A DNA stretch of 42,588 bases from the NCBI GenBank assembly GCA_029974835.1, contig JARKQN010000084.1, positions 1 to 42,588 on the forward strand, in the 5' to 3' direction. The notes under the pieces were generated by a model. The model saw nothing but the letters and a program-made list of their open reading frames with translations. It did no database searches and was not told the DNA's origin. The position numbers and the translations under genes are program-made. Numbering within the stretch: the stretch's first letter is position 1; every line of letters starts with the position of its first letter. The stretch is from Bacteroidales bacterium (GTDB lineage: Bacteria; Bacteroidota; Bacteroidia; Bacteroidales; VadinHA17). Below, piece after piece: positions 12,620 through 41,046 of the stretch.

Positions 12620-13120
12620 ATGAAATCAACCGGATTATTTTTAAGCTTAGTGGCTGCATTTTTGCTGCTGGCAGGCGTTCAGGGCAATGCACAGGGAGTA
12701 AACTTTTCAGGCACATGGACCTTCAATGAATCCAAGAGTCCGGCCTCTGAAGGAGGATTCAGGTTTGCCCCGTCAAAACTTGTTGTAACTCAAAGCGGCA
12801 ATGATCTTACAGTTCAGAGGACATCTCCGGGCATGGACGGGGAAATGACCACAACCGACAAGTTTACCCTCGACGGCAAGGAGTGCATAAACACCATGTT
12901 TGGTGACAACAAGCGGAAAACTGTTGTGAAATGGTCGCCCGATTCCAAAACCCTAATATTCAGCCACTCAATGTCGTTTGAAATGGACGGTCAGTCGATG
13001 CAGTTCAACTCAACGGAAAACTGGAAGCTTAATGAAGCTGACAAGACTCTCTCGGTTGAAACCATTATGACAACTCCTAACGGAGAGATGAAGACCACCA
13101 ACGTTTACGACAAGAAATAG
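12620..13120 (+). CDS. Small exported beta-rich protein, lipocalin-like (function unknown)
   Basis: A 166-residue protein with a Sec signal peptide ending near GNAQG (residue 25). The mature part alternates short strands: NFSGTWTFNESKS, KLVVTQSGNDLTVQR, KFTLDGKE, KTVVKWSPDSKTLIFSHS, STENWKLNEADKTLSVE. It begins with the GTW motif seen in lipocalin-like and related small beta-barrel proteins of environmental bacteria. No catalytic residues are apparent. It is transcribed alone between two oppositely oriented glycosidase genes, and its end converges on the GH2 gene with a 12-base gap. A role in binding a small hydrophobic or sugar ligand is only a guess. Confidence 0.72.
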   Translation: MKSTGLFLSLVAAFLLLAGVQGNAQGVNFSGTWTFNESKSPASEGGFRFAPSKLVVTQSGNDLTVQRTSPGMDGEMTTTDKFTLDGKECINTMFGDNKRKTVVKWSPDSKTLIFSHSMSFEMDGQSMQFNSTENWKLNEADKTLSVETIMTTPNGEMKTTNVYDKK

Positions 13121-13132
13121 AACAGGTTCAAA

Positions 13133-20314: not shown

Positions 20315-22381
20315 TTATTTCAGTTTTTTTGCAATGCTGTCATATTTCCCGGCCATCTCCGGGTCTGATTCCCTGCAGAGTTCTGCCAGCGCCTCCACTG
20401 CAGGTTTGTATGCGGGATTGACCCTGAGGCACTGCCGCAATATACTTCGTGCCCCGGCAGGATCTTTTCTGCCGGCAAGCCGGGCAAGTTCCACATAAGC
20501 CTCAGAATATTTCCTGTTGAATTCAATAAGCCTTCTGAAATATCCGCCGGCCCGGTCATCTTCTCCCCTGCGGGCCGAGATGATCCCCGAATACATCAGT
20601 GCCGGTTCAAAGAACGGGTTTACTTCAAGAGATTTCTTCAGAACAGAATCGGCCCTTAACGAATCTCCCGACCTGTTCAGGACGACTGCAAAATTATAAA
20701 AAATCATTTCATCTCCCTTCTCAGTCCGGAGAGCTCTTTCAAAAAGATCTTCAGCCTCATCATAACGGTTTTCTTCCAGCGCTTTAAAACCGAAATAGTC
20801 ATCCTTTGTTTTCCTTTCTATTACCGCGCAAACAGGTGCGCCCCCTGCTTTCGCCACGTATAATGAATTTCCGGGAGGCCAGTGATTCTCCCTGAGCCTG
20901 AACGGCAGAATATACCTGTTGGTGGAGAGGTAATAATCCCAGTCATAACAACTTCTCTCCTCATTTCGCAGGTAAATATTTTTTACCAGGGGCATATTCC
21001 GGAAATACCATTCGGCCGAAAAATTCGAGGCAACGACAACTGTGTCGGCGATACCTTTTTTCTCAAGATGATTAATCAGCCATCCGGCTGCTTCGGACTG
21101 GCCGATGAAATAATAATCCGTTTCATATTTCCCGTTAGCCCCCTTTACCCCTCCTGCAAGCTCATTGAAATAGAGATAAGCATAACGGTAATTGCTGATC
21201 AGATACTTTGCGGGATGGACGGAAAGCATGACAAAAACGAATATTATCAGAGGCTTAAAACGTCGGACCCGGTCTGTTGTAATAAAACTTGTTATGCCGG
21301 CTGAAGCAATTATCACGATACCGGGATAAAGAAACAGGAACTGTCTCCAGCCGCTGTAAATATTTGGTTTTGTTATTATTTCATAAATAACAGGGAAGAG
21401 CACCGAAAAAAGTATAAGACTCCATGGCAGAATTTTATCCTTCCCGGCCGCTTCCCTCAATCTAACCGGAAAGAGCGCTGCTCCTGCCAGCACTGAAAGG
21501 GGTAAGGTTACAAGCAGGTATTTCAGAAGGTAATACCATGGCATATAATCGGTCCATTCGAAGCTCCCTTCGAAAATCTCACGGAAAGTGAGCGGGAATC
21601 TGCTCATCAGCAGATGCGCCCTGACCGGGTTTAGGACAGGATTCTGCAGACCATACGGCCAGTAAAGCACGCTTAATAACCAGGCAGCGGCTGAGATGAG
21701 GGTTATCAGTGCCAGCCGCTCCGCCTGTTTCTTTATACCAATTCTTAAACCGTTAATGTAATCAATTGCCACTTTAACGAAGAAGAACAGGTACAGGTAG
21801 CAGATGAGCAGCATCCCTCCTGCCCTGATGCTCATGCAGAAAGCAATGCTCAGGATCAGGATCACCGATTCGCCGGCAGGCATTCTTTTTTCTGAGGCGA
21901 GAAACCTGATTATGGAATAAATTCCTGCCAGATATCCGAGGGCGAAGGGAATATCCTTGAGGTTATTCTGGGAATGGCCGAGGAAAGTGGGTGAAACCGC
22001 AAAAAGCAGCAGTGCCGTTACTCCCGCGTTGAACCCGGCCACTCTCCACGCAAGCAGGGAGGCAAGAAGAATCGAAAGCCAACCGGCGAGCGTGGCCATA
22101 AGATGACGGAAACCATATATGTCGTTAATCCCGAAGGTCCTTATTAACAGGGTGGTAAAATTATCATACGACTGACCGTAATATTTCAGATGGGTTCCGG
22201 GTGTGTTGAGGCATGTAAGGTCTTTGCCGCCACTTGAGTAATAATTATTTACCGAAACCGAATGGTTATAGTGCAATACCTCATCACAGCTCACGCCCGC
22301 CTTTCTGCTTCCGGCAGTCATGATGGCAAGCAGGATCAGGGCCAGAGCAGTAAAAATGAGCTTTTGTCTTTTACTCTCCAT
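20315..22381 (-). CDS. GT-C-type membrane glycosyltransferase-like protein with C-terminal TPR domain
   Basis: A 688-residue protein. After the first transmembrane helix it has SCDEVLHYNH with Asp33-Glu34, the acidic pair in the first external loop of GT-C enzymes such as the GT39 and ArnT groups. About ten more hydrophobic segments extend to near residue 405. A soluble periplasmic-type region follows, and residues from about 520 onward form TPR-like repeats (YFGFKALEENRYDEAEDLF, FYNFAVVLNRSGDSLRADS and others). Such proteins move a sugar from a polyprenyl-phosphate carrier to a protein or glycan acceptor. The GT2 gene directly upstream could supply that carrier-linked sugar: its TGA overlaps this ATG by one base (TGATG). 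The donor sugar and acceptor are unknown. Confidence 0.75.
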   Translation of the reverse strand: MESKRQKLIFTALALILLAIMTAGSRKAGVSCDEVLHYNHSVSVNNYYSSGGKDLTCLNTPGTHLKYYGQSYDNFTTLLIRTFGINDIYGFRHLMATLAGWLSILLASLLAWRVAGFNAGVTALLLFAVSPTFLGHSQNNLKDIPFALGYLAGIYSIIRFLASEKRMPAGESVILILSIAFCMSIRAGGMLLICYLYLFFFVKVAIDYINGLRIGIKKQAERLALITLISAAAWLLSVLYWPYGLQNPVLNPVRAHLLMSRFPLTFREIFEGSFEWTDYMPWYYLLKYLLVTLPLSVLAGAALFPVRLREAAGKDKILPWSLILFSVLFPVIYEIITKPNIYSGWRQFLFLYPGIVIIASAGITSFITTDRVRRFKPLIIFVFVMLSVHPAKYLISNYRYAYLYFNELAGGVKGANGKYETDYYFIGQSEAAGWLINHLEKKGIADTVVVASNFSAEWYFRNMPLVKNIYLRNEERSCYDWDYYLSTNRYILPFRLRENHWPPGNSLYVAKAGGAPVCAVIERKTKDDYFGFKALEENRYDEAEDLFERALRTEKGDEMIFYNFAVVLNRSGDSLRADSVLKKSLEVNPFFEPALMYSGIISARRGEDDRAGGYFRRLIEFNRKYSEAYVELARLAGRKDPAGARSILRQCLRVNPAYKPAVEALAELCRESDPEMAGKYDSIAKKLK

Positions 22382-23310
22382 CAGTCAGCGGTTGTTCCGC
22401 CGTAAAACTTCTTTACAAAATATACCGGTCTGTTCTGTGATTCCTTGTAAGTCCGGTAGACATACTCCCCGATGATCCCCAGGAATACAAGCTGGATGGA
22501 ACCAAGGAAATAGATACTCAGGAGGGTTGAAGACCAACCCGGCACAGCAATGTGCATTGCTTTTGCAACGAGCACATAAATTCCTGCAGCCAGAAAAACA
22601 ATAACACCTGTCAGACCCAGGAAAAAACAAAGCCTCAGGGGAAATTTTGAGAAAGAGAATATTGCATCACCGGCAAGGCGGAGCAGTTTCAGGAATGTCA
22701 TTTTCGGTTTGCCCGAAAACCGTTCGTCGCGGACAAAGTCAACAAATCCCTGGCGGAAACCGATAAATGACCTGATGCCCGGCAGATATCTTATATTCTC
22801 CCTGACGGATAAGAGAGCATCTGCAGCCTTTCGCGTCATCATTGAAAAATTTCCGGCATTGCCGATATCACCGAGCCCGGCGACCTTTCCGAAAAGCCTG
22901 TGAAAAAGCTGCATGTACAGGTTTCTCATACGGTTCCCCTTTCTGGATGATTTTCTTGCACTGACAACATCAAATCCCTCTTTCCTTATAAGATTGTACA
23001 TATCGGATAGCACTTCAGGCGGATCCTGAAGGTCTCCGTCCATCATCGCAACAAGGTCGCCCGAGGCATGCTCAAGTCCTGCAGTATATGCAGCCTGGTG
23101 CCCGAAATTTCGTGAGAGGGCAAGTACTTTAATTTTCGGATTGGCCTTCCTGTGTCCGAGCAGGATTCCGAGGGTGTTGTCGGTGCTGCCGTCGTCTACA
23201 AAAATAATCTCATAATCGGCTATAAACGATTCGATTGCAGGTACTGTCCGTTTAATCAGTTCTTTAAGTACCTGCTCCTCGTTAAAAACAGGTATTACTA
23301 CCGACAACAT
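22381..23310 (-). CDS. GT2 family polyprenyl-phosphate glycosyltransferase-like protein
   Basis: A 309-residue protein of the DPM1/GtrB/ArnC-like group. The N-terminal GT-A domain begins LSVVIPVFNEE and carries VDDGSTD (38-44) and MDGDLQDPPE with the DxD at 91-93. NFGHQAAYTAGLEHA is typical of dolichol- or undecaprenyl-phosphate sugar synthases. Two C-terminal membrane helices (about 230-255 and 265-290) match the GtrB topology. The expected reaction is transfer of a sugar from a nucleotide donor to undecaprenyl phosphate at the inner face of the cytoplasmic membrane. It begins 8 bases after the ThuA gene and overlaps the following membrane protein gene by one base. Confidence 0.88.
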   Translation of the reverse strand: MLSVVIPVFNEEQVLKELIKRTVPAIESFIADYEIIFVDDGSTDNTLGILLGHRKANPKIKVLALSRNFGHQAAYTAGLEHASGDLVAMMDGDLQDPPEVLSDMYNLIRKEGFDVVSARKSSRKGNRMRNLYMQLFHRLFGKVAGLGDIGNAGNFSMMTRKAADALLSVRENIRYLPGIRSFIGFRQGFVDFVRDERFSGKPKMTFLKLLRLAGDAIFSFSKFPLRLCFFLGLTGVIVFLAAGIYVLVAKAMHIAVPGWSSTLLSIYFLGSIQLVFLGIIGEYVYRTYKESQNRPVYFVKKFYGGTTAD

Positions 23311-23318
23311 ACTAAAAA

Positions 23319-24530
23319 CTAATTAGCTCCCAATCGTTCAATGGCAAAATCAGCCTCATCCTTCAGTTCCGGAACAGCCTGAAGCTTTTTGATGGCCGGA
23401 AGCGAATAATCTGTTCCGATCCAGCTCAGTTCCCTGAGGACCAGCTTCTTTGCCTCAACTGTTGCGGAAGGGTTATTAAGCAGTTCTGTAAGCTTCTTTT
23501 CGATCTCAAGGAGTTTTGTCTTGTCGCCTGCAGCCCTGCGTATCTCTTCCTGTATTCCTGTATAGAACCTGGTGCTTTTGCCGATATCGTATTCTCCGAG
23601 ACCTTCAATATTCTCATCGAGTGTGCGGATCTTCAGGTTTGATCTGACGGATATTGCAGCTGCGCTCGGGAAGTCGGGCGGCACTTCCTGTGTTACCTTT
23701 CCTGAAGCGGCCCACTCTGCACCGCGCTGCAGTGTTGTGATGAATCCTGCGCATTTGAGGGCAATATTCTCATCACCTGAAGGGAATCCCAGTGTGGTAT
23801 GGAATACTCTTCCCTTACCGTATGTAACTGCCATCATAACAGGCTCTTCCCTGCCTGTTCCCCCGCCTGTTGTATCGCAGAAGGCAGTAGCGAGAACATC
23901 TATATTCCCTGCCGGTCCCCTGAGGCGTGCAAACAGAAGGTCGTCCGGGTGCATCCACCTGACAGGCAGACCTTTTGTGACGGGATGCCCGGGGTTTCTC
24001 ATTCTTACTTCAAAATCGCGTGTCTTTCCGTACCATCCTGCCGGCCCCGGTGTGGAATCGACAACCATTCTGCCGGCCCGGTTAAAGTAGACATATGGTC
24101 CGGTCTTTTCGGAGCGGTCTCCCCATCCCGTCAGGCCGCATATTTCCTCATACTCTTTCCATCCCGGAAAGGCAGATGATGCGGCATGGTACACTACAAC
24201 TCCTCCCCCGTTTTTTACGTATCCGGCAAAATCCTGTTTTGTGTTTTCGCTCCACTGGTCGCCCGAGTAATTAAGAACGACAACATCATATTTGGAAAAT
24301 TTTGGCCGGAAGCCGGTCATATCTCCACCTGCATCTGGGGAATTGACAATTTCAGCCTTAAAGAGACCTGATTCTTCGAGTATCTGTTTAAGCAGTGTAC
24401 TGCTTGTCTGCCAGTCGATTGTATTCTGACCTGTGACGATGAGAGCGGCATACTGAGTGCTTTTCCGGCATCCTACTGCGATTAGTGCAAGAGCAGCTGC
24501 TGTTAAAATGAAATATTTTATCTTTTTCAT
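23319..24530 (-). CDS. ThuA-domain lipoprotein
   Basis: A 403-residue protein with a lipoprotein leader ending LIAVGC (Cys21). Residues about 27-260 form a ThuA (trehalose-utilisation) domain with a glutamine-amidotransferase-like fold. Motifs include YDVVVLNYSGDQW, GGGVVVYHAASSAFPGW, YEEICGLTGWGDRS, HPVTKGLPVRWMHPDDLLF and YGKGRVFHTTLG. The C-terminal about 120 residues are helical and may be a repeat-type scaffold. In Sinorhizobium, ThuA works with the Gfo/Idh-type dehydrogenase ThuB in a 3-keto-disaccharide route, and here two exported Gfo/Idh/MocA genes lie immediately upstream (10-base gap to the nearer). A role on oxidised sugars in the periplasm is therefore plausible. Confidence 0.86.
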   Translation of the reverse strand: MKKIKYFILTAAALALIAVGCRKSTQYAALIVTGQNTIDWQTSSTLLKQILEESGLFKAEIVNSPDAGGDMTGFRPKFSKYDVVVLNYSGDQWSENTKQDFAGYVKNGGGVVVYHAASSAFPGWKEYEEICGLTGWGDRSEKTGPYVYFNRAGRMVVDSTPGPAGWYGKTRDFEVRMRNPGHPVTKGLPVRWMHPDDLLFARLRGPAGNIDVLATAFCDTTGGGTGREEPVMMAVTYGKGRVFHTTLGFPSGDENIALKCAGFITTLQRGAEWAASGKVTQEVPPDFPSAAAISVRSNLKIRTLDENIEGLGEYDIGKSTRFYTGIQEEIRRAAGDKTKLLEIEKKLTELLNNPSATVEAKKLVLRELSWIGTDYSLPAIKKLQAVPELKDEADFAIERLGAN

Positions 24531-24540: not shown

Positions 24541-25854
24541 TTAAACTGTTGGCAATGTCCATGGTTTGCGGTAAGGGCGGCTCAGGAGGCGGCTTGCCGT
24601 GGGGTTATCAATGATTTCCTCCTTGTCCGGATCCCACTTTATTTTCTGACCTGTAGTCATTGAGATTTCTCCTAGAAGTGCCACCGATATTGCGCGGTAT
24701 GCGGGTTCTATAGGGGCGATTGCCTGCTTGCGCGACCGGACACTGTCAACGAAGTTCTGGTAATGGTTATCACTCTTGTAGAGATGGGTTTCGTTATCTC
24801 CTATCTCCTCCTTCAGAATATTCGGGTCGGATGCGCTGATGCGGTTTCCGCGGTCAACATGAAGCCAGCCAAGGTCTCCGTACCAGCATGTTCCCATGCC
24901 TTTGGGAAGGCGGGATGAATTAGCCACTCTCATCTCGATGCCGTTGGCATATTTGCAGAGTATATCATATTCAACGGGGGCGTTGTAGATTCCGTCGACG
25001 GGGTATACTCCCTTTCCTTCAATTTCGACGGGACCTGTATATTCCAGCCCGGTGCCCCAGTTGGCAATGTCGATATGATGGCCGGCCCAGTCGGTAAGCT
25101 GTCCGCCCGAGTAATCGAGTATCCACCTCCAGTTCCAGTGACAGACGCCGCGGTAAGGCACTTTAAGTGCGGGACCCAGCCACATCTCCCAGTCGAGTTC
25201 TTCAGGCACATCCTGCACTGGCGGGGTACCGATACCCCTTCCGCCGTCGGGCAGGCCCACTTCAATATATTTTACTTTTCCTATTCTTCCGTTAATTACC
25301 AGCTCGGCTCCCTTGTGAAAGTTTGCCTGCGAACGCTGCCAGCTTCCGGTTTGCCAGATGACACCGTTATCTTTTACGGCTTTTACTATTACTTTGCCGT
25401 CGTTGATGGTTCTGCATATTGGTTTTTCGCCATACACATCCCATTTTTTCCTGGCAGCTTCCGAATAGATTATTCCGTGCCAGTGGTCGGGGAGGGCAAT
25501 AAGAACCGCATCCAGTTTCTCTTTTTCCATGAACTCCCTGTAATCGCCGTATGTACGGCAATCTTTGCTGCGGTTGGTTTTATCGACCACATCCTTTGCC
25601 GATGCAAGTCTTTTGGCATCAACATCGCAGAGGGCTACAAAACGGACCTGGTCTTTGAGCCTCATGAAGTCTCTCATATCGCTCATACCCTGAGAGCCTG
25701 TTCCGATGACACCCATCACTATCCTGTCGGCGGGAGGTGTCTGTCCTCCCAGCCCGAGTGATGAAGAAGGTACAATGTAAGGGATAATGACTGAGCCGGC
25801 CAGGGCTGAAGCCGACTTCCTGACAAAATCCCTTCTGGTTGATGTTTTTTTCAT
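24541..25854 (-). CDS. Tat-exported Gfo/Idh/MocA family oxidoreductase
   Basis: A 437-residue protein with a Tat leader (TRRDFVRK at residues 6-13). The dinucleotide site GVIGTGSQG lies at 48-56 and the EKP motif at 143-145. LPDHWHGIIY, WNWRWILDYSGGQLTDWAGHHIDIANWG (seen in the middle third) and SDNHYQNFVDSVRSRK are typical of the secreted Bacteroidota/Planctomycetota subgroup. It differs clearly from the other exported oxidoreductases in the window and is closest in layout to the one at 501-1862. It probably oxidises or reduces a sugar in the periplasm with tightly bound NAD(P). It lies between a second Gfo/Idh/MocA gene (28 bases upstream) and ThuA (10 bases downstream). Confidence 0.89.
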   Translation of the reverse strand: MKKTSTRRDFVRKSASALAGSVIIPYIVPSSSLGLGGQTPPADRIVMGVIGTGSQGMSDMRDFMRLKDQVRFVALCDVDAKRLASAKDVVDKTNRSKDCRTYGDYREFMEKEKLDAVLIALPDHWHGIIYSEAARKKWDVYGEKPICRTINDGKVIVKAVKDNGVIWQTGSWQRSQANFHKGAELVINGRIGKVKYIEVGLPDGGRGIGTPPVQDVPEELDWEMWLGPALKVPYRGVCHWNWRWILDYSGGQLTDWAGHHIDIANWGTGLEYTGPVEIEGKGVYPVDGIYNAPVEYDILCKYANGIEMRVANSSRLPKGMGTCWYGDLGWLHVDRGNRISASDPNILKEEIGDNETHLYKSDNHYQNFVDSVRSRKQAIAPIEPAYRAISVALLGEISMTTGQKIKWDPDKEEIIDNPTASRLLSRPYRKPWTLPTV

Positions 25855-25882: not shown

Positions 25883-27220
25883 TTAAACCTGAACAGGCAA
25901 GCCCGGAACAGGTGGTTCGAATTTCATGTCCACCGGACCCATCTCAATTTTTTCAGGTCCCAGTTTTAAATCCGATTTAAGGATATCATCCCAGGTAACC
26001 AGCCTGCCGGTATAGGCGGCTTCTCTTCCCATGATTGCTGTCAGGGTTGAGTAGGCAGTCTGTTCAGCCTCATTTACATAGTTACCTGTCCGTATTGCCC
26101 ATACAAGGTGCATGTGTTCCTGAACGTATGAAGGTATTCTGAGAGAATTAGTAGGATTGCCGTTTTCATCGGGCGGATACTCAAATTTCCAGATAATTTT
26201 TCCGTCGAGATCCCAGATTGTGTTCTGGCAGTTTGTATATCCTTCGGTACCGACTACTATCTCGCCCGTGCCATTTGCACATCCGTCTATTTGCCGGCAC
26301 ATGCTGTGGGAGCTTATTCCTGAACCATAGTCGAAGTCCACACTGAAGAAGTCGTACTGGTCGCCAGTCACTCTCCTGTGTCTGCCGCCGTATCCGATGG
26401 CTCTTTCGGGGTGTTTTCCCATGAACCAGTTTACAACATCGATATTATGAACGTGGGTATCCAGGATATGATCGCCTGAGAGCCAGATGAAGTTATTCCA
26501 GTTCCTGATCATATATTCCATATCGTTCCAGCCCGGTTCCCTCAGCCTGAACCATACATGGTCCTGATTCCAGTATGCTTTGGCAGATGTTATCCTGCCG
26601 ATGGCACCTGATGCAACCTGTTTGTATGTCTCGATATAATCTTCCTGGTGACGGCGCTGTGTTCCCGTAACAACGTTAATACCGATTGCCTCGGCTTTTT
26701 TGGCTGTGGCCAGTATTGACCTGATACCTGTAGGGTCGACTGCAACAGGTTTTTCCATGAACACATGTTTCTTCTGTGTGACGGCTTCAAGGAAGTGGTC
26801 GGGTCTGAATCTTGGTGGTGTAGCCAGGATAACCACGTCAATTTCTTCGATGGCCATCAGTTTTTTATATCCGTCGAAGCCAGTGAAGCAGTTTTCTGCA
26901 GGAATAGGAAGGCCGAATGAAGCGAATCTTTCGCGGCAGGCATCTATTTTATCCTGGAAGACATCGGCCACTCCGATTATTTCGAGGTCGGGTCCTGCGC
27001 TTATGAAGTTGATGGCAGCTCCCGTGCCGCGTCCGCCTGCACCCACAAGTCCGGCTTTGAGCTTCCGCCCTTTCGGGGCGCCTCTAAGTACAGGCGGGAG
27101 CCCGGCCGGTTCGGCGGTTTTTTTACGGCCGCAACCCTCTATCAGTGCAGCAGCTCCCGCAAGGCCGAGCCCTGCCACTGCCGCGTTGCCAATGAATTTT
27201 CTTCTGTCAATTTTCTTCAT
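25883..27220 (-). CDS. Exported Gfo/Idh/MocA oxidoreductase with combined Tat and lipoprotein signals
   Basis: A 445-residue protein. DRRKFIGN (residues 5-12) is a twin-arginine motif and the leader ends with ALIEGC, so it is probably a Tat-exported lipoprotein anchored through Cys30. The Rossmann site LVGAGGRGTG is at 58-67 and MEKP at 155-158. GTQRRHQEDY and HILDTHVHNIDVVNWFMG carry the substrate-side residues. It begins 10 bases after the cytochrome/FGE-like fusion gene and ends 28 bases before the next Gfo/Idh/MocA gene. Anchoring this enzyme to a membrane, next to a membrane-bound cytochrome, may matter for electron transfer; that link is inference. Confidence 0.88.
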   Translation of the reverse strand: MKKIDRRKFIGNAAVAGLGLAGAAALIEGCGRKKTAEPAGLPPVLRGAPKGRKLKAGLVGAGGRGTGAAINFISAGPDLEIIGVADVFQDKIDACRERFASFGLPIPAENCFTGFDGYKKLMAIEEIDVVILATPPRFRPDHFLEAVTQKKHVFMEKPVAVDPTGIRSILATAKKAEAIGINVVTGTQRRHQEDYIETYKQVASGAIGRITSAKAYWNQDHVWFRLREPGWNDMEYMIRNWNNFIWLSGDHILDTHVHNIDVVNWFMGKHPERAIGYGGRHRRVTGDQYDFFSVDFDYGSGISSHSMCRQIDGCANGTGEIVVGTEGYTNCQNTIWDLDGKIIWKFEYPPDENGNPTNSLRIPSYVQEHMHLVWAIRTGNYVNEAEQTAYSTLTAIMGREAAYTGRLVTWDDILKSDLKLGPEKIEMGPVDMKFEPPVPGLPVQV

Positions 27221-27230: not shown

Positions 27231-28766
27231 TTATTTCTTCGTTAATATCTGGCTGTCCGGCTCGCAAACGACCCTGAATCCCACATCAATGCAATCGGAG
27301 TACCACCAGATGCTTTTTGGCATCTGCGGGTCGGTTGTAAGCCATGCTTTTGTTTTTGTATGATCGCGCGCGGCGCTTCTCACGTCGCGGGCATCACTTT
27401 TGAACGAACCTCCTCTGATCACCCTTTCCTGTCCTTCGGAAGGCCCCCGGGGATCAACCCTTACAGAGTCGGCTGCATATGCTGATTCTGAGTAATAGTC
27501 GGAACAGAATTCGGCAACATTTCCTGACATATTTTTAATGCCCAGCGGATTGGGTTTAACCTGTCCGGGAGGTGCGGTACGCGACGAACTGTTAACCTTG
27601 TAAACAACGTAGGAGGCTATGTTTGATGTATCGGGTCTGAAAATCTTCTTAAAGAAACCCTCTGAAGTGAATTTTTTCGGGTCGCCTTCAAAGAAGTATG
27701 GTGTCTGCGTTCCTCCCCTGCAGGCATATTCCCATTCAGCCTCCGTGGGCAGACGGTACTTTTTACCTGTTTTCATTGAGAGCCAGCGGCAGTAAACATT
27801 TGCTGCGTGCCATGTCATGGTAATGGCAGGTCTGGAACCCTTGCCCCATCCCTGGTCGGGGGCTCCCCACGGAGGAGTCGGCCCTGATACGGCATCCACC
27901 TTTCTGCTTGTCACTACCTGCCCCTCAGTCCTTCCCTGGGATGAGGTCTCCCTGAAAAACGCCAGGTATTCATCCCACGTAACCTCCACCTCTCCTATCC
28001 AGAAAGGTGAAAGGGAGACTTCCCTTACAGGGCCCTCGTCAGGTTCACGAAGAGGCTCATTGTCCGGGCTTCCCATCCTGAAGGTTCCTCCCTCCACGGC
28101 GATCATTCTGAAAGAGACACCCGTACCCGGAATTTTTTCGGTAAAGTTTTCAAACTTTTCGACTTTCGCAGGCTCGGTGAATACAACCGCTTCAGCGCTC
28201 TTTGTTACACCGAAGGAGGTATCTCTTGCATGTATCAGGCTCCTGTCGAAATGCCCGACACCAAGGTGGCAGTTGATGCATCTTGGCGGATCGCTGCTGA
28301 GTGTATAAAACAGGTGTGCATCGCTTCCTTCCTTTGAAAGTGTTACAGGAAAGAGATTCTGATGGCATTCAAGACACGATTCTTCGTATACAAATTTCTT
28401 TGCGTTCTCAATAAGTTTTTTTGATTCCCAGTTTATATCCGCACTGTCCTTGAAGAGGTAGCCGTAAAGGTCCTTTAACCCATGTTTTGCTTTGGTGTAA
28501 AGATACCCTTTGCCTTTAGGTGCAAGATGACATTCGACACAGTGGGTGACAACACCCGAACTGTTATTGTAATGGGTGCCAAGCCTCCATGTCTGTTCGG
28601 CATGGGGGTGTATATGGCACGACATGCAATATTTATCGGTGGAAGTCCATGAAATGACTTTTTTTGCCGCAATCAGAAAAAGAGCGCACGTTATTATGCC
28701 TCCGGTAAAAATCCACCTCAGCGGTCTTCTTTTATTTAACCGACTGGATATCAACCTATTTCTCAT
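27231..28766 (-). CDS. Tetraheme NapC/NirT-type cytochrome c fused to an FGE-sulfatase (SUMF1)-like domain
   Basis: A 511-residue fusion. One membrane helix (about 18-38) is followed by four heme-binding motifs: CMSCH 47-51, CVECH 76-80, CLECH 131-135 and CINCH 163-167, with spacing like NapC/NrfH/CymA quinol dehydrogenases. After a linker (about 180-215) comes a formylglycine-generating-enzyme-like domain: GGTFRMGSPDNEP (226-238), RLPTEAEWEYA (338-348), NMSGNVAE (412-419), RGGSF (451-455) and DVGFRVV (494-500). The two copper-binding cysteines of true FGE are replaced, by Ser457 and Val462, so sulfatase activation is unlikely; a structural or binding role is more likely. The cytochrome half should take electrons from the quinol pool, or feed them to it, on the periplasmic face. 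Two exported sugar oxidoreductases follow directly, the first after 10 bases. Confidence 0.88.
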   Translation of the reverse strand: MRNRLISSRLNKRRPLRWIFTGGIITCALFLIAAKKVISWTSTDKYCMSCHIHPHAEQTWRLGTHYNNSSGVVTHCVECHLAPKGKGYLYTKAKHGLKDLYGYLFKDSADINWESKKLIENAKKFVYEESCLECHQNLFPVTLSKEGSDAHLFYTLSSDPPRCINCHLGVGHFDRSLIHARDTSFGVTKSAEAVVFTEPAKVEKFENFTEKIPGTGVSFRMIAVEGGTFRMGSPDNEPLREPDEGPVREVSLSPFWIGEVEVTWDEYLAFFRETSSQGRTEGQVVTSRKVDAVSGPTPPWGAPDQGWGKGSRPAITMTWHAANVYCRWLSMKTGKKYRLPTEAEWEYACRGGTQTPYFFEGDPKKFTSEGFFKKIFRPDTSNIASYVVYKVNSSSRTAPPGQVKPNPLGIKNMSGNVAEFCSDYYSESAYAADSVRVDPRGPSEGQERVIRGGSFKSDARDVRSAARDHTKTKAWLTTDPQMPKSIWWYSDCIDVGFRVVCEPDSQILTKK

Positions 28767-32420: not shown

Positions 32421-33800
32421 CTATTTTATCCTAATGGGTTTTTCAGAATCTTTCGACATACTGTAGGGCAGCATCCAGACCTTCCCAAAGCTTTTGTCGG
32501 TGAAGTATATTCGTGATTCCGAAAATTTATAGGCATCGCCGTCGGCCCACCATGCATAGAATTCCCTGCCGGCATTCAACGGCCGCCGTACATAAGAATT
32601 ATTAAAACGGCTTCCGGATGTTACATCATTCTGCTTACTCCATGTTTTACCTTTATCCCTGCTTATCCACACGGCTATCTCCCCTCCCACGCCGTAAATC
32701 TGCGGGCCCGGTTCGGAAGGTCCTATTACCTTCCATATATCCTTATCGATAATCAGGGTTCCGGCATCAAAGTTATTGTCGGGTTCACAGACCCTGCTAA
32801 AACTCCAGCTTCCGCCTGTTCTGCTCACCACCACCCATTCACGTGGTATCTCCGAAGGTCCCGGGATCACACTTCCCCCTATGCAGGCAAGTATAACAGG
32901 GTTTCCATCTCCATCGAAATTAATATCATAGATGTATGTAAGCTTCTTCTCCGAGAGGTAATCTCTCACCATTGCTTCATTTTTAATATCCCTAAGCGGA
33001 GTCTGAATGGTTTTTCCTTCTGCGTTTTTCCAGGTCTTTCCGAAATCATCGGAATAAATCAGGTAAAGGTTGGTTCGCCTGTCAGAGTCTCCCTCCGGGT
33101 GATAATTGAAGGCAATATAGATTTTGTTATTGTTTACTGCAGAAACATAACCTGTACCGCCCATTGAAACCAGCGCCCTGTCCCCGCTCCATTCGAGGCC
33201 GTCAGCACTTTCCGAAATATAAAGATCGAGGCCTTTCCTGTATTTCGAAAAAAGGAGCCGGAATCCCCTTTCCTGAAACCACCATGGCTGCGGAAATGAC
33301 ATCTCCTTAATCATTACCTCTTCAAATTTTTCAGTCGACCAGGGGGTGACGCTTTTGAAAACCAGTCCCGGGCGTGTTCTCATCCACCCGCTGACGAATA
33401 CCCACAGGAAACCCTTGCTGTCGATGGATAGTGATGCATTGTCGTAAGGGCTCCTTACTCCTCCCTTGTCGAAAACAACTACCGGCTTTGGCACCTTTCC
33501 TGTTCTGTGATCGAAATAAGAAATCATTATTCTCAGAGAGCTTTCTCCCGGTGATGATGTGCCTCCGTAAACAAAAAATGTTTTGCCTGCAGCAGAAGAA
33601 TAGATGGCGGTAGGGACATGTCTCGAACCGAATGTTGCAAAGCCGCCCGATAACTTGTAACCGTATTCGGTTTTGTCTCCCGTGTTGTACCATATACCCA
33701 TATAACCGTCCGCCACCGGATTCTGGGCCGTCAGACTTCGATTGATGTGGCCGGAAAGACTTAATAAAATCGTTAAAAGCAATATCCGGTTGAGATTCAT
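32421..33800 (-). CDS. Exported BNR-4 repeat protein (possible PL42-type lyase)
   Basis: A 459-residue protein. The ATG at 33800 was chosen because it begins a signal peptide (MNLNRILLLTILL, ending near SLTAQ) and avoids overlap with the divergent gene; a longer frame starts at 33863. The mature part is a multi-bladed beta-propeller of the BNR-4 family with the start DGYMGIWYNTGD, then AGKTFFVYGGT, SYFDHRTGKVPKPVVVFDKGG, FPQPWWFQERGF, FSKYRKGLDLYISES and RRPLNAGREFYAWWADGD. Some proteins of this family are polysaccharide lyases of family PL42, acting on L-rhamnose-alpha-1,4-D-glucuronate ends. No lyase activity can be proved from sequence. The gene at 36557-37945 is a paralogue. Confidence 0.82.
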   Translation of the reverse strand: MNLNRILLLTILLSLSGHINRSLTAQNPVADGYMGIWYNTGDKTEYGYKLSGGFATFGSRHVPTAIYSSAAGKTFFVYGGTSSPGESSLRIMISYFDHRTGKVPKPVVVFDKGGVRSPYDNASLSIDSKGFLWVFVSGWMRTRPGLVFKSVTPWSTEKFEEVMIKEMSFPQPWWFQERGFRLLFSKYRKGLDLYISESADGLEWSGDRALVSMGGTGYVSAVNNNKIYIAFNYHPEGDSDRRTNLYLIYSDDFGKTWKNAEGKTIQTPLRDIKNEAMVRDYLSEKKLTYIYDINFDGDGNPVILACIGGSVIPGPSEIPREWVVVSRTGGSWSFSRVCEPDNNFDAGTLIIDKDIWKVIGPSEPGPQIYGVGGEIAVWISRDKGKTWSKQNDVTSGSRFNNSYVRRPLNAGREFYAWWADGDAYKFSESRIYFTDKSFGKVWMLPYSMSKDSEKPIRIK

Positions 33801-33886
33801 GCTTTTCTGATTCTTCAATTCAATCAGGATAAAGATAATAATGTTTTTAAAATGAAACTGCACGGGAGTAAAAATACCCCTTTTTG

Positions 33887-33901
33887 TATATTTGCAAATA
33901 T
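33887..33901 (+). promoter_or_regulatory. TATATTTG -7 box inside a perfect palindrome at the PL10 start
   Basis: TATATTTG at 33887-33894 matches the TAnnTTTG -7 consensus on the plus strand. Bases 33888-33901 form a perfect 14-base palindrome (ATATTTGCAAATAT) that runs into the chosen ATG at 33900-33902. No clear TTG/TTTG -33 element is seen 19-21 bases upstream. If used, transcription would begin at or next to the start codon, giving a nearly leaderless message; a regulator could bind the palindrome. Confidence 0.35.
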
Positions 33902-35003
33902 GAGAACGGTAAATGGCATGTTAATGGCAATTCTGTTGCTAATGTCCTCCTTCGTGGCGGTCGGGCAAACTGACATAACAAAGCTGTCATGGGGCTATGT
34001 GGCAACGCGCATGCCCGTGGGCTGGTACGGTTCGGAAGAGTCGGTCAGGGTGGCTGAGAACATCCTGCTTTATCAGCGCGATGCCGGGGGATGGCCCAAG
34101 AATATTGAGAAACATCTTCCCTTAACTGAAGAAGAAAGAAAGAAAGTACTCACGGATAAGAAACTCAATGATGCCATCTTCGACAACAGTGCCACAACCA
34201 CAGAGATGCGGTTTCTTGAAAAGATGTACGTCAAGGTTCCGGATAAGAGATACCGGGAATCATTCAACAGGGGGTTGAGGTTTATTCTTGATGCGCAGTA
34301 TGAAAACGGAGGATGGCCCATGTTCTGGCCGCTGAGAAAGGGATATTACACTCATATTACATTCAACGACAATGCTATTGTCAATATCCTCAGGTTATTA
34401 CGAGACATAAACGAAAAGAAGTACAATTTCAGCCTGATAACCGACACATCTTTGCTTTCGCGTTCACAGAGGGCATACCGGCTTGGAATAGAATGTATTC
34501 TTAAAACCCAGATAATTGCCGACGGCAAACCCACAGTATGGTGTGCCCAGCATGATGAATTCACTCTGAAGCCTGCTGCTGCAAGGTCGTATGAACTTCC
34601 GTCATTCAGCGGATCGGAATCGGCCGGGATAGTACTTCTGCTTATGGAGATTCCTGAACCTTCGCCGGAAGTGATCAGGGCAGTGACCGGCGCAGTGGAG
34701 TGGTTCGACGCACACAGGCTTAAAAATACGCGGTGGGAATACTTTGTAAATGAGCAGGGACAGAGAGACCGGAGAATAGTGCATGACCCCGCAGCAGGGG
34801 ACATGTGGGCACGGTTCTACGACCTGGAAACCGGCGAGCCTTTCGTATGCGACCGCGACGGCATAAAGAAAAAGAGCCTTGAAGAGATCGGTTACGAAAG
34901 GCGTAACGGTTACAGCTGGTATACAGATGCTCCTGAAGAAGTTAAGGAAAAATATTCCGGGTGGCTGAAGAGGATTGCAGCTCAGAAAAATACCGGGCAT
35001 TAA
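33900..35003 (+). CDS. PL10 family pectate lyase-like protein
   Basis: A 367-residue exported lyase; a longer frame starts at 33852, but the ATG at 33900 begins the signal peptide directly (MRTVNGMLMAILLLMSSFVA). The toroid-type (alpha/alpha) domain shows family PL10 motifs: DAGGWPKN (61-68), DNSATTTEM (95-103), THITFNDNA (151-159), CAQHDEFTLKPAAARSYELPS with Arg229 as the likely catalytic arginine, then FSGSESAGI, and MWARFYDLETGEPF. PL10 enzymes cleave homogalacturonan by beta-elimination with calcium. The aspartates for calcium binding appear present. It faces the BNR-4 gene divergently, and its TAA stop shares bases with the stop of the convergent hydrolase gene. Confidence 0.9.
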   Translation: MRTVNGMLMAILLLMSSFVAVGQTDITKLSWGYVATRMPVGWYGSEESVRVAENILLYQRDAGGWPKNIEKHLPLTEEERKKVLTDKKLNDAIFDNSATTTEMRFLEKMYVKVPDKRYRESFNRGLRFILDAQYENGGWPMFWPLRKGYYTHITFNDNAIVNILRLLRDINEKKYNFSLITDTSLLSRSQRAYRLGIECILKTQIIADGKPTVWCAQHDEFTLKPAAARSYELPSFSGSESAGIVLLLMEIPEPSPEVIRAVTGAVEWFDAHRLKNTRWEYFVNEQGQRDRRIVHDPAAGDMWARFYDLETGEPFVCDRDGIKKKSLEEIGYERRNGYSWYTDAPEEVKEKYSGWLKRIAAQKNTGH

Positions 35004-36478
35004 TGGTTTTGCCGTAATTCTTCCAGCCTCTTCCATACCTCATCAGCAGTATGCAGCGCGTTTTGGGGCATCCTGCCGTTCTTTCCAAACACCAGGAGCT
35101 TGTCGTATGTCTCAATGGTCACCTTCGACTCGTCAACCTTCCCTTCTTTGTCCTTTACAAGGCCGGTATTGAGCCCAAGATGCCTGGCCATAAAATCATA
35201 CATTGCAAGCCTTTTGGAAATTCCGTAATCGTGTTTCTCAGCCGCCAGATGCACATTCTCAACGTTTTCAGTTTTGTTGTAGAGTGAATAAATCTTCTGA
35301 AGATACGGGTATTCTATTTCAGGCACGTGTTTTGTCCAGTCGTCGCCATCGGAAATCACCAGCATAGGGCGTGGTGAAGCCATGGCAGCTATTTCGGCGT
35401 TGTATGTAAGCAGGCCGGTACATGTCTGCAGAGGCATGCCGCTTTCACAAGGGCAGCCCCCGTAATAATACGAAGAAACCATTACAACAGGTACGCTGAC
35501 CGATATCCTTCCGTCGAGGGCAGTTGCAAGCATTGCCTGGGTAGCTCCGCCCGAAGCGCCGGTTATGGCAATTCTTTTACTGTCGGTAAAAGGCAGTGAA
35601 ACAAGGTAATCTATAGCCCTGATTGAATTCAGGGTCTGCATGGTATGAGCCAGACCGGTTCTGTGCAGTTCGCTGCTGAACTGCAGCCTTGACTCGCCCC
35701 AGGCAAACATGTCGTAGTTGAAAACAACCGCCCCCATCCTGGCAAGTGTGGCGCATCTGTACTGCATGTCGGGCCTGTAACGACCGTAAAGGTTTGTATC
35801 GGGATTAGAGAAATGTCCGTACGGGCATAGCACTACAGGGAAAGGTCCCCTGCCTTTTGAGGGCTTGTAGAGCGAACCGCACAGGTACACGCCGGGTATC
35901 GTTTCGATGGCAATATTGCTTACCGTGTATCCGTCATATTTCCTTTCAGGCGTAACAATGGGATTGAAAGGTGTCTTTGCCGGGAAGGGACTAAGCTTAA
36001 GCTGTTCAAGGAAACATTTTCTCAGCTCTTCCTTCCTGGCCTCCCAAATATCCGCACTGGTGCAGGCGGCCAGAAGCTGCCCGAGATGTTTTCTCCCCTC
36101 TTCAACCGGACGCTGGTAATAACTAAACCTGGTAACAGTGTACTCTTTTTCACCGGTTTTCTCATAAACCAGTCCGAGCGGGAGAAGAATGTTTGCCAGG
36201 GTGTTTTCCGCATCTGCCCTGTATCGCCAGGTAGGAAAAGAAACCTCTATACCTTTTACCAGGCTTTCGCTGTATTGAATTTTAACTTCATGTCGTGCCT
36301 CTGCATCCGCAAGCACTTCTTTCAGAGACTTATGGTAGACGTCTTCCGGCTTCTGGGCGAAAACAACCGGGAACATCATCAAAGCGACCAGAATAAATAA
36401 ATATTGCCGTTTACAGACAAAAATTCCTAAACTGCGGAGGACGCAAAAATTTTCAAAGAATAATCCAACAGGTTTCAT
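35000..36478 (-). CDS. Alpha/beta hydrolase (acetylxylan-esterase-like) with N-terminal STN-like domain
   Basis: A 492-residue exported protein. The ATG at 36478 is preferred because of its AT-rich leader; ATGs at 36499 and 36538 extend the frame by 7 and 20 residues. After a membrane-type leader (VCKRQYLFILVALMMF) comes an STN-like domain of about 75 residues (KSLKEVLADAEARHEVKIQY through EKEYTVTRF), as at the N-terminus of some SusC and FecR proteins. The rest is an alpha/beta hydrolase with GASGG (nucleophile Ser), SDGDDW (Asp) and EKHDYG (His). Relatives remove acetyl or related ester groups from plant glycans. It follows the second BNR-4 gene by 78 bases on the same strand. An STN domain on a hydrolase is unusual. 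Confidence 0.82.
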   Translation of the reverse strand: MKPVGLFFENFCVLRSLGIFVCKRQYLFILVALMMFPVVFAQKPEDVYHKSLKEVLADAEARHEVKIQYSESLVKGIEVSFPTWRYRADAENTLANILLPLGLVYEKTGEKEYTVTRFSYYQRPVEEGRKHLGQLLAACTSADIWEARKEELRKCFLEQLKLSPFPAKTPFNPIVTPERKYDGYTVSNIAIETIPGVYLCGSLYKPSKGRGPFPVVLCPYGHFSNPDTNLYGRYRPDMQYRCATLARMGAVVFNYDMFAWGESRLQFSSELHRTGLAHTMQTLNSIRAIDYLVSLPFTDSKRIAITGASGGATQAMLATALDGRISVSVPVVMVSSYYYGGCPCESGMPLQTCTGLLTYNAEIAAMASPRPMLVISDGDDWTKHVPEIEYPYLQKIYSLYNKTENVENVHLAAEKHDYGISKRLAMYDFMARHLGLNTGLVKDKEGKVDESKVTIETYDKLLVFGKNGRMPQNALHTADEVWKRLEELRQNH

Positions 36479-36556
36479 AGTATTGATATTTAAATCCATT
36501 CCTCTGGGTTTTATGCCGGAATTCAGCCAGAATACCATTGCGGCCCCGGATCAGAT

Positions 36557-37945
36557 TTACCGGCTTTTGGAATCAGCATTTTTCCTTAAAATTAGCGGTT
36601 TTTGTGAATCAGCCTCCATGTTATAAGGGAGTTCGCGGGTTTTAAGCCCTGTTTTGTTTGTAAACCACAGGTGCGATTCAGAAAGTTTACCGGCGTCGCC
36701 GTCGGCCCATAAAGCATAAAAATCATCATGTGCGTTCAGAGGTCTTCTGGCATATGAGTTATTACGTATACTTTCTGAGGTGATCATACGTATTCTTTTC
36801 CATGTTATACCTTCGTCCCTGCTTTCCCACAAAGCCATCTCTCCGCCTGTACCGAAATGCTGGGGACCGGGCTCTGTCGGCCCGATGATTCTCCATATTT
36901 TCTCCTTCGTATATAAGGATCCCATATCGTAGTTGTGTGTTGATTCGCACACTTTACTGAAAGTCCATCGGCCCGCCTTCCAGCGGATGATAAACCATTC
37001 CCGCGGATCGCCGGATGGACCTGGTCTGTAGTCTCTGCTTATCACAGCCAGTATTACGGGGTTACCTTCGCTGTCGAAGTTGAGGTCATTTATATATACA
37101 AGTTTTCCTTCAGCTTCGAAGTCTTTTATCAGGGCTTCACAATGCGGGTCGGTAAGAGGCGGTTTAATTACTTTACCGTCAATTGTTTTCCATGTCCTGC
37201 CAAAATCTTCGGTCTGAACGGCATACAGATTGGTTCTTTTATCCACATTACCTCCCGGGTGGTACATAAAGGCCGAAACAAGTTTATTCCCGAGCATGTT
37301 GGTTACCTGATAGTGGCCGCCCATGCCTGCAAGTTTTTTTTCGGTTTCCCAGTGAACGCCGTCAGGGCTTGTTGTCCAGTAGAGTTCTCTCCCGCCGGTG
37401 TATTTTGTAAACATCAGGATAAACCCCCTGTCTTTCACATACCATGGTTGCGGGTAAGTAATTTCTCCCTCCCTGACGAGGTCGAAGGCACTTATGCTGA
37501 AAGGCTCGCGGCTTTTATAGATGAATCCCTGCCGCGATCGTGCCCTGCCGCTCACAAAAACCCAAAGATAACCTGAGCCGTCAACGGACAGGGCTGCATT
37601 GTCATGAGGGTCGTTCACACCCTGTTTATCGTGCACAACCACAGGCCTGGGCACTTCTCCGCTTTTATGATCATAATAAGAGATCATATTCAGAAGGTGT
37701 CTTTCCCCGGCCGCGGTTGTACCTCCGTAGACAAAGAAGGTTTTGCCGGCTTCGGGAGAATATACCGCAACCGGGACATGGTTGGCAGTATATGTCCCAA
37801 GGCCGCCCGAATACTTATCGCCATATTCCGAGAACTGACCCAGGGAGAACCATATACCCCGGTAGCCGTCTGTGCGGGGGTTATGCGCACTGATAAAAAC
37901 CGAGCAGAGCACAAGCGGAAGAATCAGAGATGATTTATTAACCAT
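36557..37945 (-). CDS. Exported BNR-4 repeat protein (possible PL42-type lyase), second copy
   Basis: A 462-residue protein. The ATG at 37945 is preferred because it begins the signal peptide (MVNKSSLILPLVLCSVFISA); the longer frame to 38143 adds 66 residues without export features. The propeller repeats match the protein at 32421-33800 block for block: DGYRGIWFSLGQ, AGKTFFVYGGT, SYYDHKSGEVPRPVVVHDKQG, YPQPWYVKDRGF, MFTKYTGGRELYWTTS and RRPLNAHDDFYALWADGD. The two are clearly paralogues that have diverged, so they may act on different linkages of one glycan. It is placed between the SusCD operon terminator and the STN-hydrolase gene. Confidence 0.84.
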   Translation of the reverse strand: MVNKSSLILPLVLCSVFISAHNPRTDGYRGIWFSLGQFSEYGDKYSGGLGTYTANHVPVAVYSPEAGKTFFVYGGTTAAGERHLLNMISYYDHKSGEVPRPVVVHDKQGVNDPHDNAALSVDGSGYLWVFVSGRARSRQGFIYKSREPFSISAFDLVREGEITYPQPWYVKDRGFILMFTKYTGGRELYWTTSPDGVHWETEKKLAGMGGHYQVTNMLGNKLVSAFMYHPGGNVDKRTNLYAVQTEDFGRTWKTIDGKVIKPPLTDPHCEALIKDFEAEGKLVYINDLNFDSEGNPVILAVISRDYRPGPSGDPREWFIIRWKAGRWTFSKVCESTHNYDMGSLYTKEKIWRIIGPTEPGPQHFGTGGEMALWESRDEGITWKRIRMITSESIRNNSYARRPLNAHDDFYALWADGDAGKLSESHLWFTNKTGLKTRELPYNMEADSQKPLILRKNADSKSR

Positions 37946-38100
37946 AGACGTAAAAAATCCAGAATTATCCGATACCTTTTCTCCGGCAGCTTGTGTTCCT
38001 GCCGGGTTATTTTGGGACCTGTTTATTTTTAACCTCCTGTTAGCTTTTTTGTGTATTAACCGCGGCGAGTCGCATAAACTGAAGAAGGTATGACAAATAA

Positions 38101-38126
38101 AGCACCGCCCCATAAGAAGCGGTGCT
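38101..38126 (-). terminator. Intrinsic terminator downstream of the SusCD operon
   Basis: AGCACCGC at 38101-38108 pairs with GCGGTGCT at 38119-38126 around a 10-base loop. Two further A-T pairs extend the stem at its base. On the minus strand it is followed by TTATTTGTC, giving a T-rich tail; the plus strand has TTTATT. It lies 48 bases after the stop of the third gene of the SusCD operon and before the BNR-4 gene, separating these transcription units. Confidence 0.72.
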
Positions 38127-38174
38127 TTTATTACAACCGGCAATATTGGTTTTAAGTTATTGCCTCATCAGGTT

Positions 38175-39152
38175 CTAGTTATAATGATCAGGGTTTTCAT
38201 CCTGCCATTCATTTATACCGTCCCTGAATCTGTTACGGAATCTCAGGGTATCTGTACAATGGTAAGTCCAGCCGTTGCCGGGGTTCAGGTACTTGTACTT
38301 CAGGTAGATTCTTCTGTCCTGCAGGAGCTTCGACCTGTTGAATGTGCTCTCACCGTCGGGTTCGATGGTGTAGGTGGCACCGGCTCCGTCCGATACAAAG
38401 ACCGTGTTTCCTTTAAGTACGAGTTTCATTTCATTTTTACTGGTTACCTGGTTCAGGTACCCGTTGGCATATAGCGTTGAAGGACCAACAGTTTTAAGTA
38501 TCCATATCTTTGCCTCGGCGGTTGGTATTTCGGTTTTATAGGTAAAGATTGAATCGGGCAGTCCCGGACGTTCTATCCTTGCCTCTCCTCCATGCCAATA
38601 ATAACCGTAAAGCATGTTTTCGAACTTAAGGCCCACGATATTATACCTTTTGTTTTCCAGAATTGTATCGGCGTCTGCATTCTGAATATAGAACGGCAGT
38701 GCATAAGTTGCATAAATGGTATTAACCGAATCGTTAAGGAAATTTGCCGAATCGGGTTTTACAACCACATCACCCATGTGCTGGCCTGCCTTAATTATCA
38801 TTTTGCTGTTATTGCTCAGGGTATAATAATTTGACGGCATAACCTGGAGTGTTGCCACCGGTGTTGCCGGATCTTTTATGTGGGCGTAGGAAGAGCCCTT
38901 CATCTGAGCGAGAATTGCAGGAGTTACAAGAGCCGGATCGAGTGTAAAGGTAACTTCACGGTCAATGGTATTCTTTCTTACGCCACCAAGAGCAGCACCT
39001 ACTTTTATCTGCATTCCCTCGCCCACCACAAATGTTCTTACATCGATCTGGTACGGGAAATAGATGCCTGTGTAAACGTAGTCAAGAATATAATCCTCGT
39101 AGCATGACACTGCAGCCACGGAGAGAATTATAAAAGCAATAAACTTTTTCAT
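38175..39152 (-). CDS. Surface glycan-binding lipoprotein candidate (DUF1735/DUF4361 type)
   Basis: A 325-residue lipoprotein with the leader ending AAVSC (Cys17). The N-terminal part (IYFPYQIDVRTFVVGEGMQ, KVGAALGGVRKN, REVTFTLDPAL) fits the DUF1735 (BT_3987-like) domain. The C-terminal part, with YYWHGGEARIERPG, IWILKTVGPSTLYANGYLNQ and YHCTDTLRFRNR, fits DUF4361. Genes of this type are commonly third in SusC-SusD operons and bind glycans at the cell surface, often with solvent-exposed aromatic residues; Trp and Tyr are plentiful in the C-terminal half. It is 22 bases after the SusD gene and is followed by the terminator at 38101-38126. Confidence 0.83.
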   Translation of the reverse strand: MKKFIAFIILSVAAVSCYEDYILDYVYTGIYFPYQIDVRTFVVGEGMQIKVGAALGGVRKNTIDREVTFTLDPALVTPAILAQMKGSSYAHIKDPATPVATLQVMPSNYYTLSNNSKMIIKAGQHMGDVVVKPDSANFLNDSVNTIYATYALPFYIQNADADTILENKRYNIVGLKFENMLYGYYWHGGEARIERPGLPDSIFTYKTEIPTAEAKIWILKTVGPSTLYANGYLNQVTSKNEMKLVLKGNTVFVSDGAGATYTIEPDGESTFNRSKLLQDRRIYLKYKYLNPGNGWTYHCTDTLRFRNRFRDGINEWQDENPDHYN

Positions 39153-39174
39153 ATTGTTTCTCCTTTAATAGTTT

Positions 39175-41034: not shown

Positions 41035-41046
41035 AGCTGTCATGAA

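Follow-up and report, generated by a model that had tools for sequence, protein, structure and literature searches.

A tetraheme cytochrome fused to an FGE-like domain with a candidate flavinylation motif, and its pairing with a Tat-signal Gfo/Idh/MocA dehydrogenase in Bacteroidales

Glucose-fructose and aldose-aldose oxidoreductases keep electrons within their bound cofactor, and the glucose-fructose oxidoreductase of Zymomonas is exported by the Tat pathway. Glucoside 3-dehydrogenase in its classical form uses FAD together with a cytochrome, and the interchange of hydride and single electrons usually falls to a flavin. To our knowledge, there is no clear account of how the bound cofactor of an exported Gfo/Idh/MocA enzyme is re-oxidised outside the cytoplasm. 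Flavinylated carriers are already known from extracytosolic systems modified by ApbE, in which flavin and cytochrome modules interchange around oxidoreductases (PMC8238504). ApbE recognises the motif D-x-x-[S/T]-G-A-[S/T] and attaches FMN to its last residue; in one ApbE target, replacement of the motif Asp with Ala was of little consequence (PMC12052999).

The locus described here is contained in a window, the whole stretch of 42,588 nt that was analysed, and centers on an open frame of 511 codons with an ATG start (Table 1). Pfam places Cytochrom_NNT (PF03264, E = 4e-24) in the N-terminal part of the product and FGE-sulfatase (PF03781, E = 2.7e-45) in the C-terminal part. Four CxxCH motifs lie at residues 47, 76, 131 and 163, and the single helix predicted in the AlphaFold2 model (residues 14–40) is N-terminal to all of them; from these c-type heme motifs, the protein beyond the membrane helix is predicted to be outside the cytoplasm. 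A C-terminal signature, TDPQxPKSxWW (residues 478–488), follows the FGE-like domain. The open frame, the Pfam matches and the motif positions thus agree with an earlier sequence-only reading, which had described four CxxCH motifs after one helix, followed by an FGE-like domain, in 511 residues.

Table 1. Features of the fusion gene and of the genes downstream of it (coordinates of the window).
Feature	Coordinates	Strand	Evidence
Fusion of a tetraheme NapC/NirT-type cytochrome and an FGE-like domain	27231..28766	-	ORF, Pfam, four CxxCH, AlphaFold2 model
NapC/NirT-type tetraheme domain, residues 18–173	28248..28715	-	Pfam; heme-1 motif CxxCHxH
FGE-like domain, residues 221–470, without the FGE copper-cysteine pair	27357..28106	-	Pfam, alignment
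Candidate ApbE flavinylation motif DAVSGPT, residues 291–297	27876..27896	-	Alignment and published motif
Thr297, predicted FMN attachment site	codon 27876–27878	-	Motif match
Gfo 1: Gfo/Idh/MocA dehydrogenase with Tat signal and lipobox, usual partner	25883..27220	-	Pfam, neighbourhood, fold
Gfo 2: second Gfo/Idh/MocA protein with Tat signal, facultative	24541..25854	-	NCBIfam, locus comparison
ThuA-family protein with lipobox, facultative	23319..24530	-	Pfam, locus comparison
GT2 glycosyltransferase, same gene run	22381..23310	-	ORF, Pfam, locus comparison
Protein with hydrophobic N-terminal part and C-terminal TPR repeats, same gene run	20315..22381	-	ORF, Pfam, locus comparison

We examined the distribution of the fusion and of Gfo 1 in an even draw of 295 genomes from the order of the window, using cut-offs of E ≤ 1e-60 for the fusion and E ≤ 1e-100 for Gfo 1 orthologues. 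The fusion is a real gene and not a chance frame, because it recurs in 38 of the 295 genomes as well as on a KSB1 contig (L016), which together with Bacteroidales accounts for the tetraheme version among the best 80 loci of a collection scan. Gfo 1 orthologues occur in 39 of the genomes, including all 38 with the fusion; the only genome of the 295 with a Gfo 1 orthologue and without the fusion, G160, is also without an ApbE match. There are 46 fusion places, two of them partial (both in G233), and at 40 of the 46 the fusion is followed within less than 400 nt by Gfo 1 in the same orientation. The six exceptions are three from genus g90, with Gfo 1 inverted or 3 kb off, one with Gfo 1 at 9 kb, one with Gfo 1 on other contigs only, and a lone cytochrome fragment. 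There are 65 Gfo 1 places in all, 25 of them without an adjoining fusion. The genome of the window carries a second copy of the fusion, 58 % identical, again with Gfo 1 directly after it.

The following genes are less constant. Fourteen of the named fusion loci extend 3.9 kb or more downstream. Gfo 2 and ThuA follow the fusion in six of these (L005–L010) and are absent from eight (L011, L013, L015, L017–L020 and L084), two of which, L015 and L084, are missing Gfo 1 too. The conserved unit is the fusion plus Gfo 1, with exceptions, and Gfo 2 and ThuA are facultative; a Gfo-Gfo-ThuA-cytochrome unit was rejected on the basis of these eight loci. The expectation that the neighbours stay beside the fusion across genomes is thus borne out in most places for Gfo 1, and fails for Gfo 2 and ThuA. 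The coupling of sugar oxidation to the respiratory chain, also put forward in the sequence-only reading, gains support from gene context, since fusion and Gfo 1 are found together in 38/38 genomes and mostly adjoin.

In the window, the gap between the fusion and Gfo 1 is 10 nt, and that between Gfo 1 and Gfo 2 is 28 nt. Both Gfo proteins have twin-arginine N-termini (RRKF and RRDF, respectively), to which Gfo 1 adds a lipobox-like Cys30; ThuA (PF06283, E = 1.8e-22) has a lipobox-like Cys21. The two Tat-exported Gfo/Idh/MocA genes at this spacing and the ThuA lipoprotein after them had been correctly recognised beforehand. Gfo 1 matches PF01408 (E = 4.4e-16), and its residues G60, G62, E156, K157 and P158, comprising the Rossmann glycines and the EKP lysine, are invariant in 14/14 sequences. 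Its top fold matches are an aldose-aldose oxidoreductase (5a02) and YjhC, with 1rye and 1h6d also present and the Zymomonas glucose-fructose oxidoreductase at rank 10; in sequence, it bears a distant likeness to DgpA. Gfo 2 is a distant match to the NCBIfam model of the glycoside 3-dehydrogenase BT_2158 (E = 1.8e-44; 152 bits, below the cut-off of 750). From the Tat signal by itself, we infer that Gfo 1 would hold its NAD(P) tightly. The substrate may be the C3 hydroxyl of a glycoside, because the window also encodes a protein of the 3-keto-disaccharide hydrolase family, further Gfo genes and xylose-isomerase-like barrels, and because of the likeness of Gfo 1 to DgpA.

The GT2 and TPR genes at the end of the run also follow ThuA in L005–L007 and come directly after Gfo 1 in L018; they may act together in transferring sugar to exported proteins. 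Positions 7612–15577 and 32421–42534 of the window are devoted to glycan degradation, with GH92, GH39, GH2, pectate lyase, SusD and BNR-repeat proteins.

The heme-1 motif is CxxCHxH in 49/49 NNT fusions, that of the window included; these are the rows of a 50-row alignment other than L058, a PSCyt1-FGE protein. The exchange at heme 1 perhaps shifts its potential. NrfH proper has CxxCHxM at heme 1 and a neighbouring NrfA. Neither feature is found in the fusion, whose heme 1 is CxxCHxH and whose neighbour is Gfo 1, and the NrfH model TIGR03153 scores 64.9 bits on it, below its cut-off of 134.2. A nitrite-reductase partner was rejected because the genome has an NrfH-like gene of its own elsewhere. 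That protein has CxxCHxM at heme 1, and its gene (L004) is followed by an NrfA-like gene with multiple CxxCH motifs. The heme part of the fusion is poorly modeled by AlphaFold2, as expected without hemes.

Relatives of the FGE-like domain outside the NNT fusions were taken from the best 80 loci of the collection scan. Of these, 62 (L022–L083) were treated as being without the tetraheme domain and were picked by similarity to the FGE-like domain, not by their neighbours; going by the titles of the records, their sources include Planctomycetota, Verrucomicrobiota, Acidobacteriota, Rhodothermota and other Bacteroidota. Leaving out L034, L039 and L050, which have no FGE frame above 150 bits, 59 loci remained. 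(L003, L004 and L114 were left out of the neighbour table, and L002, L021, L022, L057 and L085–L113 out of the reference list.) Gfo 1 (above 200 bits) is found one or two genes after the FGE-like gene in 41 of the 59. In ten of the 59, the FGE-like protein itself contains one or two CxxCH motifs, and all five of those tested (L026, L044, L058, L064 and L073) are fusions with PSCyt1 (PF07635). Therefore, two different cytochrome families are joined to the same FGE-like domain. A Tat-signal xylose-isomerase-like barrel recurs beside the pair of FGE-like gene and Gfo 1 (L049, L056, L061, L063, L068 and others; confirmed by Pfam in L063), which suggests a further step on the product.

The neighbourhood was also examined in even draws from two phyla. 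An FGE-like gene was found in 21 of 119 Planctomycetota genomes, with Gfo 1 downstream within about 1.5 kb in 11 and not in the other ten, and in 14 of 115 Verrucomicrobiota genomes, with Gfo 1 within about 1.5 kb in none of the 14. Ten of these 14 form one near-identical group (L188–L197), with the motif DSVTQPTAPY or close to it, shared with or near that of L032 from Akkermansia muciniphila; members of this group mostly have a lipobox-like start, and neither ApbE nor Gfo 1 lies within about 1.5 kb of them. The genes at L145 and L186, from the draws, are those already taken from the scan as L046 and L073.

The AlphaFold2 model contains a confident FGE-like core, with most blocks above 90. Beside it, a loop at residues 276–293, running into the motif described below, has pLDDT below 50, which could also reflect poor alignment. 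Foldseek returned PvdO (5hha) and FGEs first for the FGE-like domain, and PvdO was also the best solved structure by profile. The core is strongly conserved in alignment A1, for which 60 of 75 rows were used, leaving out 15 long or heme-bearing ones. These matches and this conservation would fit a redox enzyme akin to FGE and PvdO, with the product of the Gfo protein as its substrate and the hemes as acceptors of its electrons. However, columns 451–461, after the GGS segment, which we take to be the place of the copper cysteines of FGE, contain no Cys in any of 107 relatives, namely the NNT fusions other than that of the window (L001) and the 59 loci without the tetraheme domain; the nearest are in column 462 (8/107) and column 464 (20/107). 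An active formylglycine-generating enzyme was thus rejected for lack of the copper-cysteine pair. The reading as a redox enzyme would also leave the ApbE linkage described below unexplained, and we regard it as very unlikely.

A feature absent from the sequence-only reading is the stretch DAVSGPT, which departs from the ApbE motif only in having Pro where the motif has Ala. In the 50-row alignment, residues 291 and 297 are Asp and Thr in 50/50, residue 294 is Ser or Thr in 48 and residue 295 is Gly in 49. Across the 107 relatives, the Asp is kept in all and the last residue is always Thr or Ser, with Ser in ten, all of them among the 59 without the tetraheme domain; the residue before it is Ala or Pro in 106. 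All 35 proteins of the two even draws end the motif in Thr or Ser, and 33 of them keep the Asp; in the other two, both from Verrucomicrobiota, it is replaced by Glu (L187) or Ala (L198), and the Thr is retained. The exchange of Thr and Ser, and of no other residue, at this position fits an attachment through the hydroxyl. Only 21 of the 107 relatives have the strict motif; four flavobacterial relatives read DAVSGATTPY. The Gly is missing in 50 of the 107, and most of the family have Pro for Ala; an ordinary ApbE might not accept these departures. Among the loci without the tetraheme domain, a test of the Gly against ApbE adjacency gave a weak difference (0/9 versus 19/50, p = 0.046), and in the full set this comparison is confounded by phylum.

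Some of the motif may be inherited structure, and its Asp a structural relic, because the aligned FGE of T. curvata also shows DAV in this position but has no Thr. In an outgroup check of 30 FGE-family loci from 13 genomes, 11 have both D-x-x-[S/T]-x-[A/P]-[T/S] and DPQxPxSxW; a search of the whole proteins found neither motif in the other 19, which mostly have gaps at the aligned place.

The FGE-like genes are also linked to ApbE. ApbE adjoins the FGE-like gene at 19/59 of the loci that have no tetraheme domain. At these 59 loci, it accounts for 19 of the 329 genes located no more than three genes from the FGE-like gene and for 1 of the 449 at greater distance (Fisher p = 7e-7); Pfam confirmed ApbE in three of three cases tested. 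As far as the loci extend, no other strict motif is encoded within eight genes of the FGE-like gene at any of the 19. In the Planctomycetota draw, ApbE is divergent, just upstream and within about 1.5 kb in 17/21, and eight loci of the draw (L148, L149, L151, L156 and L160–L163) have the adjacent ApbE and no Gfo 1 within about 1.5 kb; in such cases, the FGE-like carrier may serve other enzymes. In the Verrucomicrobiota draw, ApbE is this close in only 3/14, and it is present somewhere in 13/13 genomes tested and also in the fourteenth, G304. In the flanks examined, no ApbE lies beside an NNT fusion. The gene is found elsewhere in 37 of the 38 fusion genomes, that of the window included, the exception being 61 % complete, as well as in 20/20 chosen genomes with an FGE-like gene. 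Since 231 of 257 genomes of the order without the fusion, and 268 of 295 overall, have ApbE, co-occurrence within the order is uninformative.

In a tree of 56 ApbE proteins, 33 of the 35 that are FGE-adjacent cluster together, joined by a single other, that of L053, where eight genes separate it from the FGE-like one; the two outside are from Pedobacter. The remaining 20 non-adjacent proteins are on the opposite side of the tree and include those of G303 and G304, genomes that also have an adjacent ApbE. The label changes twice along the tree versus 17.1 times in shuffles, none of 500 being as low. For this tree, ApbE proteins from 20 of 35 places in the chosen genomes were added, one being the adjacent ApbE of L073, counted once. 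The clustering is strong, as judged from these sequences, and stops short of a proven single origin, because the bootstrap is unsettled, the alignment includes long rows and the label in part tracks phylum.

The sequence-only reading had assigned a docking role to the FGE-like domain. In that case, the domain would only dock the enzyme or bind its substrate, electrons from the NAD(P)H of the Gfo protein would go straight to the hemes, and ApbE would serve something else. FGE-family folds do include the non-catalytic PorK/GldK, present among the sequence and fold matches, and the pairing with Gfo 1 would, on its own, fit. We nevertheless consider this unlikely: the Asp and the Thr or Ser of the motif are conserved, ApbE is linked and clustered and has no other strict motif nearby, and passing hydride to heme without a two-to-one-electron converter is chemically awkward. 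The motif and the linkage and clustering of ApbE make a covalent FMN carrier more likely than docking.

We thus propose that the fusion is probably an electron hub, in which FMN attached by ApbE to the FGE-like domain links the exported Gfo 1 to the hemes and to quinone. The protein would sit at the inner membrane, on its outer side, with an FGE-like domain that would have lost formylglycine formation and would instead carry FMN on Thr297, in a flexible loop. Outside the cytoplasm, Gfo 1 would most likely oxidise a hydroxyl of a sugar or glycoside and reduce the NAD(P) that it carries along; the tethered FMN would accept the hydride and pass single electrons to the four hemes, which would reduce (mena)quinone. 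In other phyla, the same module of FGE-like domain and Gfo protein would work without the tetraheme domain or with PSCyt1, so that only the output end changes. The bound cofactor of Gfo 1 would have to be re-oxidised by a partner, and a tethered flavin beside hemes and a quinone-type anchor is, in our view, the simplest arrangement that explains the conserved parts.

The direction of flow could be the opposite, from menaquinol through the hemes and FMN to the Gfo-bound NAD(P), with keto-sugars being reduced outside the cytoplasm. NapC/NirT proteins do usually oxidise quinol. One glycoside pathway includes a Gfo enzyme that reduces 3-keto-glucose (PMC10628242). The relatives joined to PSCyt1, however, suggest a module that gives electrons away. 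As the potentials of quinones and secondary alcohols also favour oxidation, reverse flow appears quite unlikely to us.

Taking the relatives together, we lean slightly towards a broader reading of the proposed hub, in which the FGE fold would be a novel type of substrate for ApbE: a carrier of tethered FMN, served by an ApbE lineage of its own in at least five phyla, that plugs exported Gfo/Idh/MocA enzymes into respiration through interchangeable cytochromes. If this is true, NAD(P)-dependent dehydrogenation could take place outside the NAD pool of the cell, and the cofactor would be re-oxidised where it is bound. In these loci of Bacteroidota and Planctomycetota, exported Gfo/Idh/MocA enzymes are a recurrent feature, and the proposal offers a concrete route for the re-oxidation of their cofactor. 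It also puts forward one more fold for the small set of proteins known to be flavinylated, and a candidate function for proteins filed in sequence libraries as sulfatase-modifying enzymes.

The closest described systems each share part of this arrangement. Those flavinylated by ApbE have in common with it an extracytoplasmic carrier, a motif like [S/T]GA[S/T] and a linked ApbE (PMC8238504, PMC11334425). Carriers named there include FMN-binding domains, DUF2271, DUF3570, Flavodoxin_4, FMN_red and proteins like fumarate or urocanate reductase (PMC8238504, PMC11334425), whereas here the carrier would be an FGE-like fold and the partner a Gfo/Idh/MocA enzyme. The terms "formylglycine" and "Gfo" do not occur in the main texts on flavinylation that were examined, PMC8238504 and PMC11334425 among them, and no account of a combination of FGE-like domain, cytochrome and Gfo protein was found among the literature matches listed. 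The NapC/NirT/NrfH cytochromes share the single N-terminal helix, the four CxxCH motifs and Cytochrom_NNT, and differ in having no fused FGE-like domain. With FGE, PvdO and GldK (PF03781), the fold and the family are common; the proteins described here differ in the absence of the copper-cysteine pair and in two subfamily motifs that 19 other FGE-family proteins do not have. Glucose-fructose and aldose-aldose oxidoreductases are among the best fold matches of Gfo 1; they keep electrons within the bound cofactor, whereas Gfo 1 has a cytochrome gene as its usual neighbour. The window shares with the 3-keto-glycoside pathways the 3-keto-disaccharide hydrolase family, the xylose-isomerase-like barrels and ThuA. 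Unlike in glucoside 3-dehydrogenase, an enzyme of NAD(P) type would here be wired to a separate flavin carrier.
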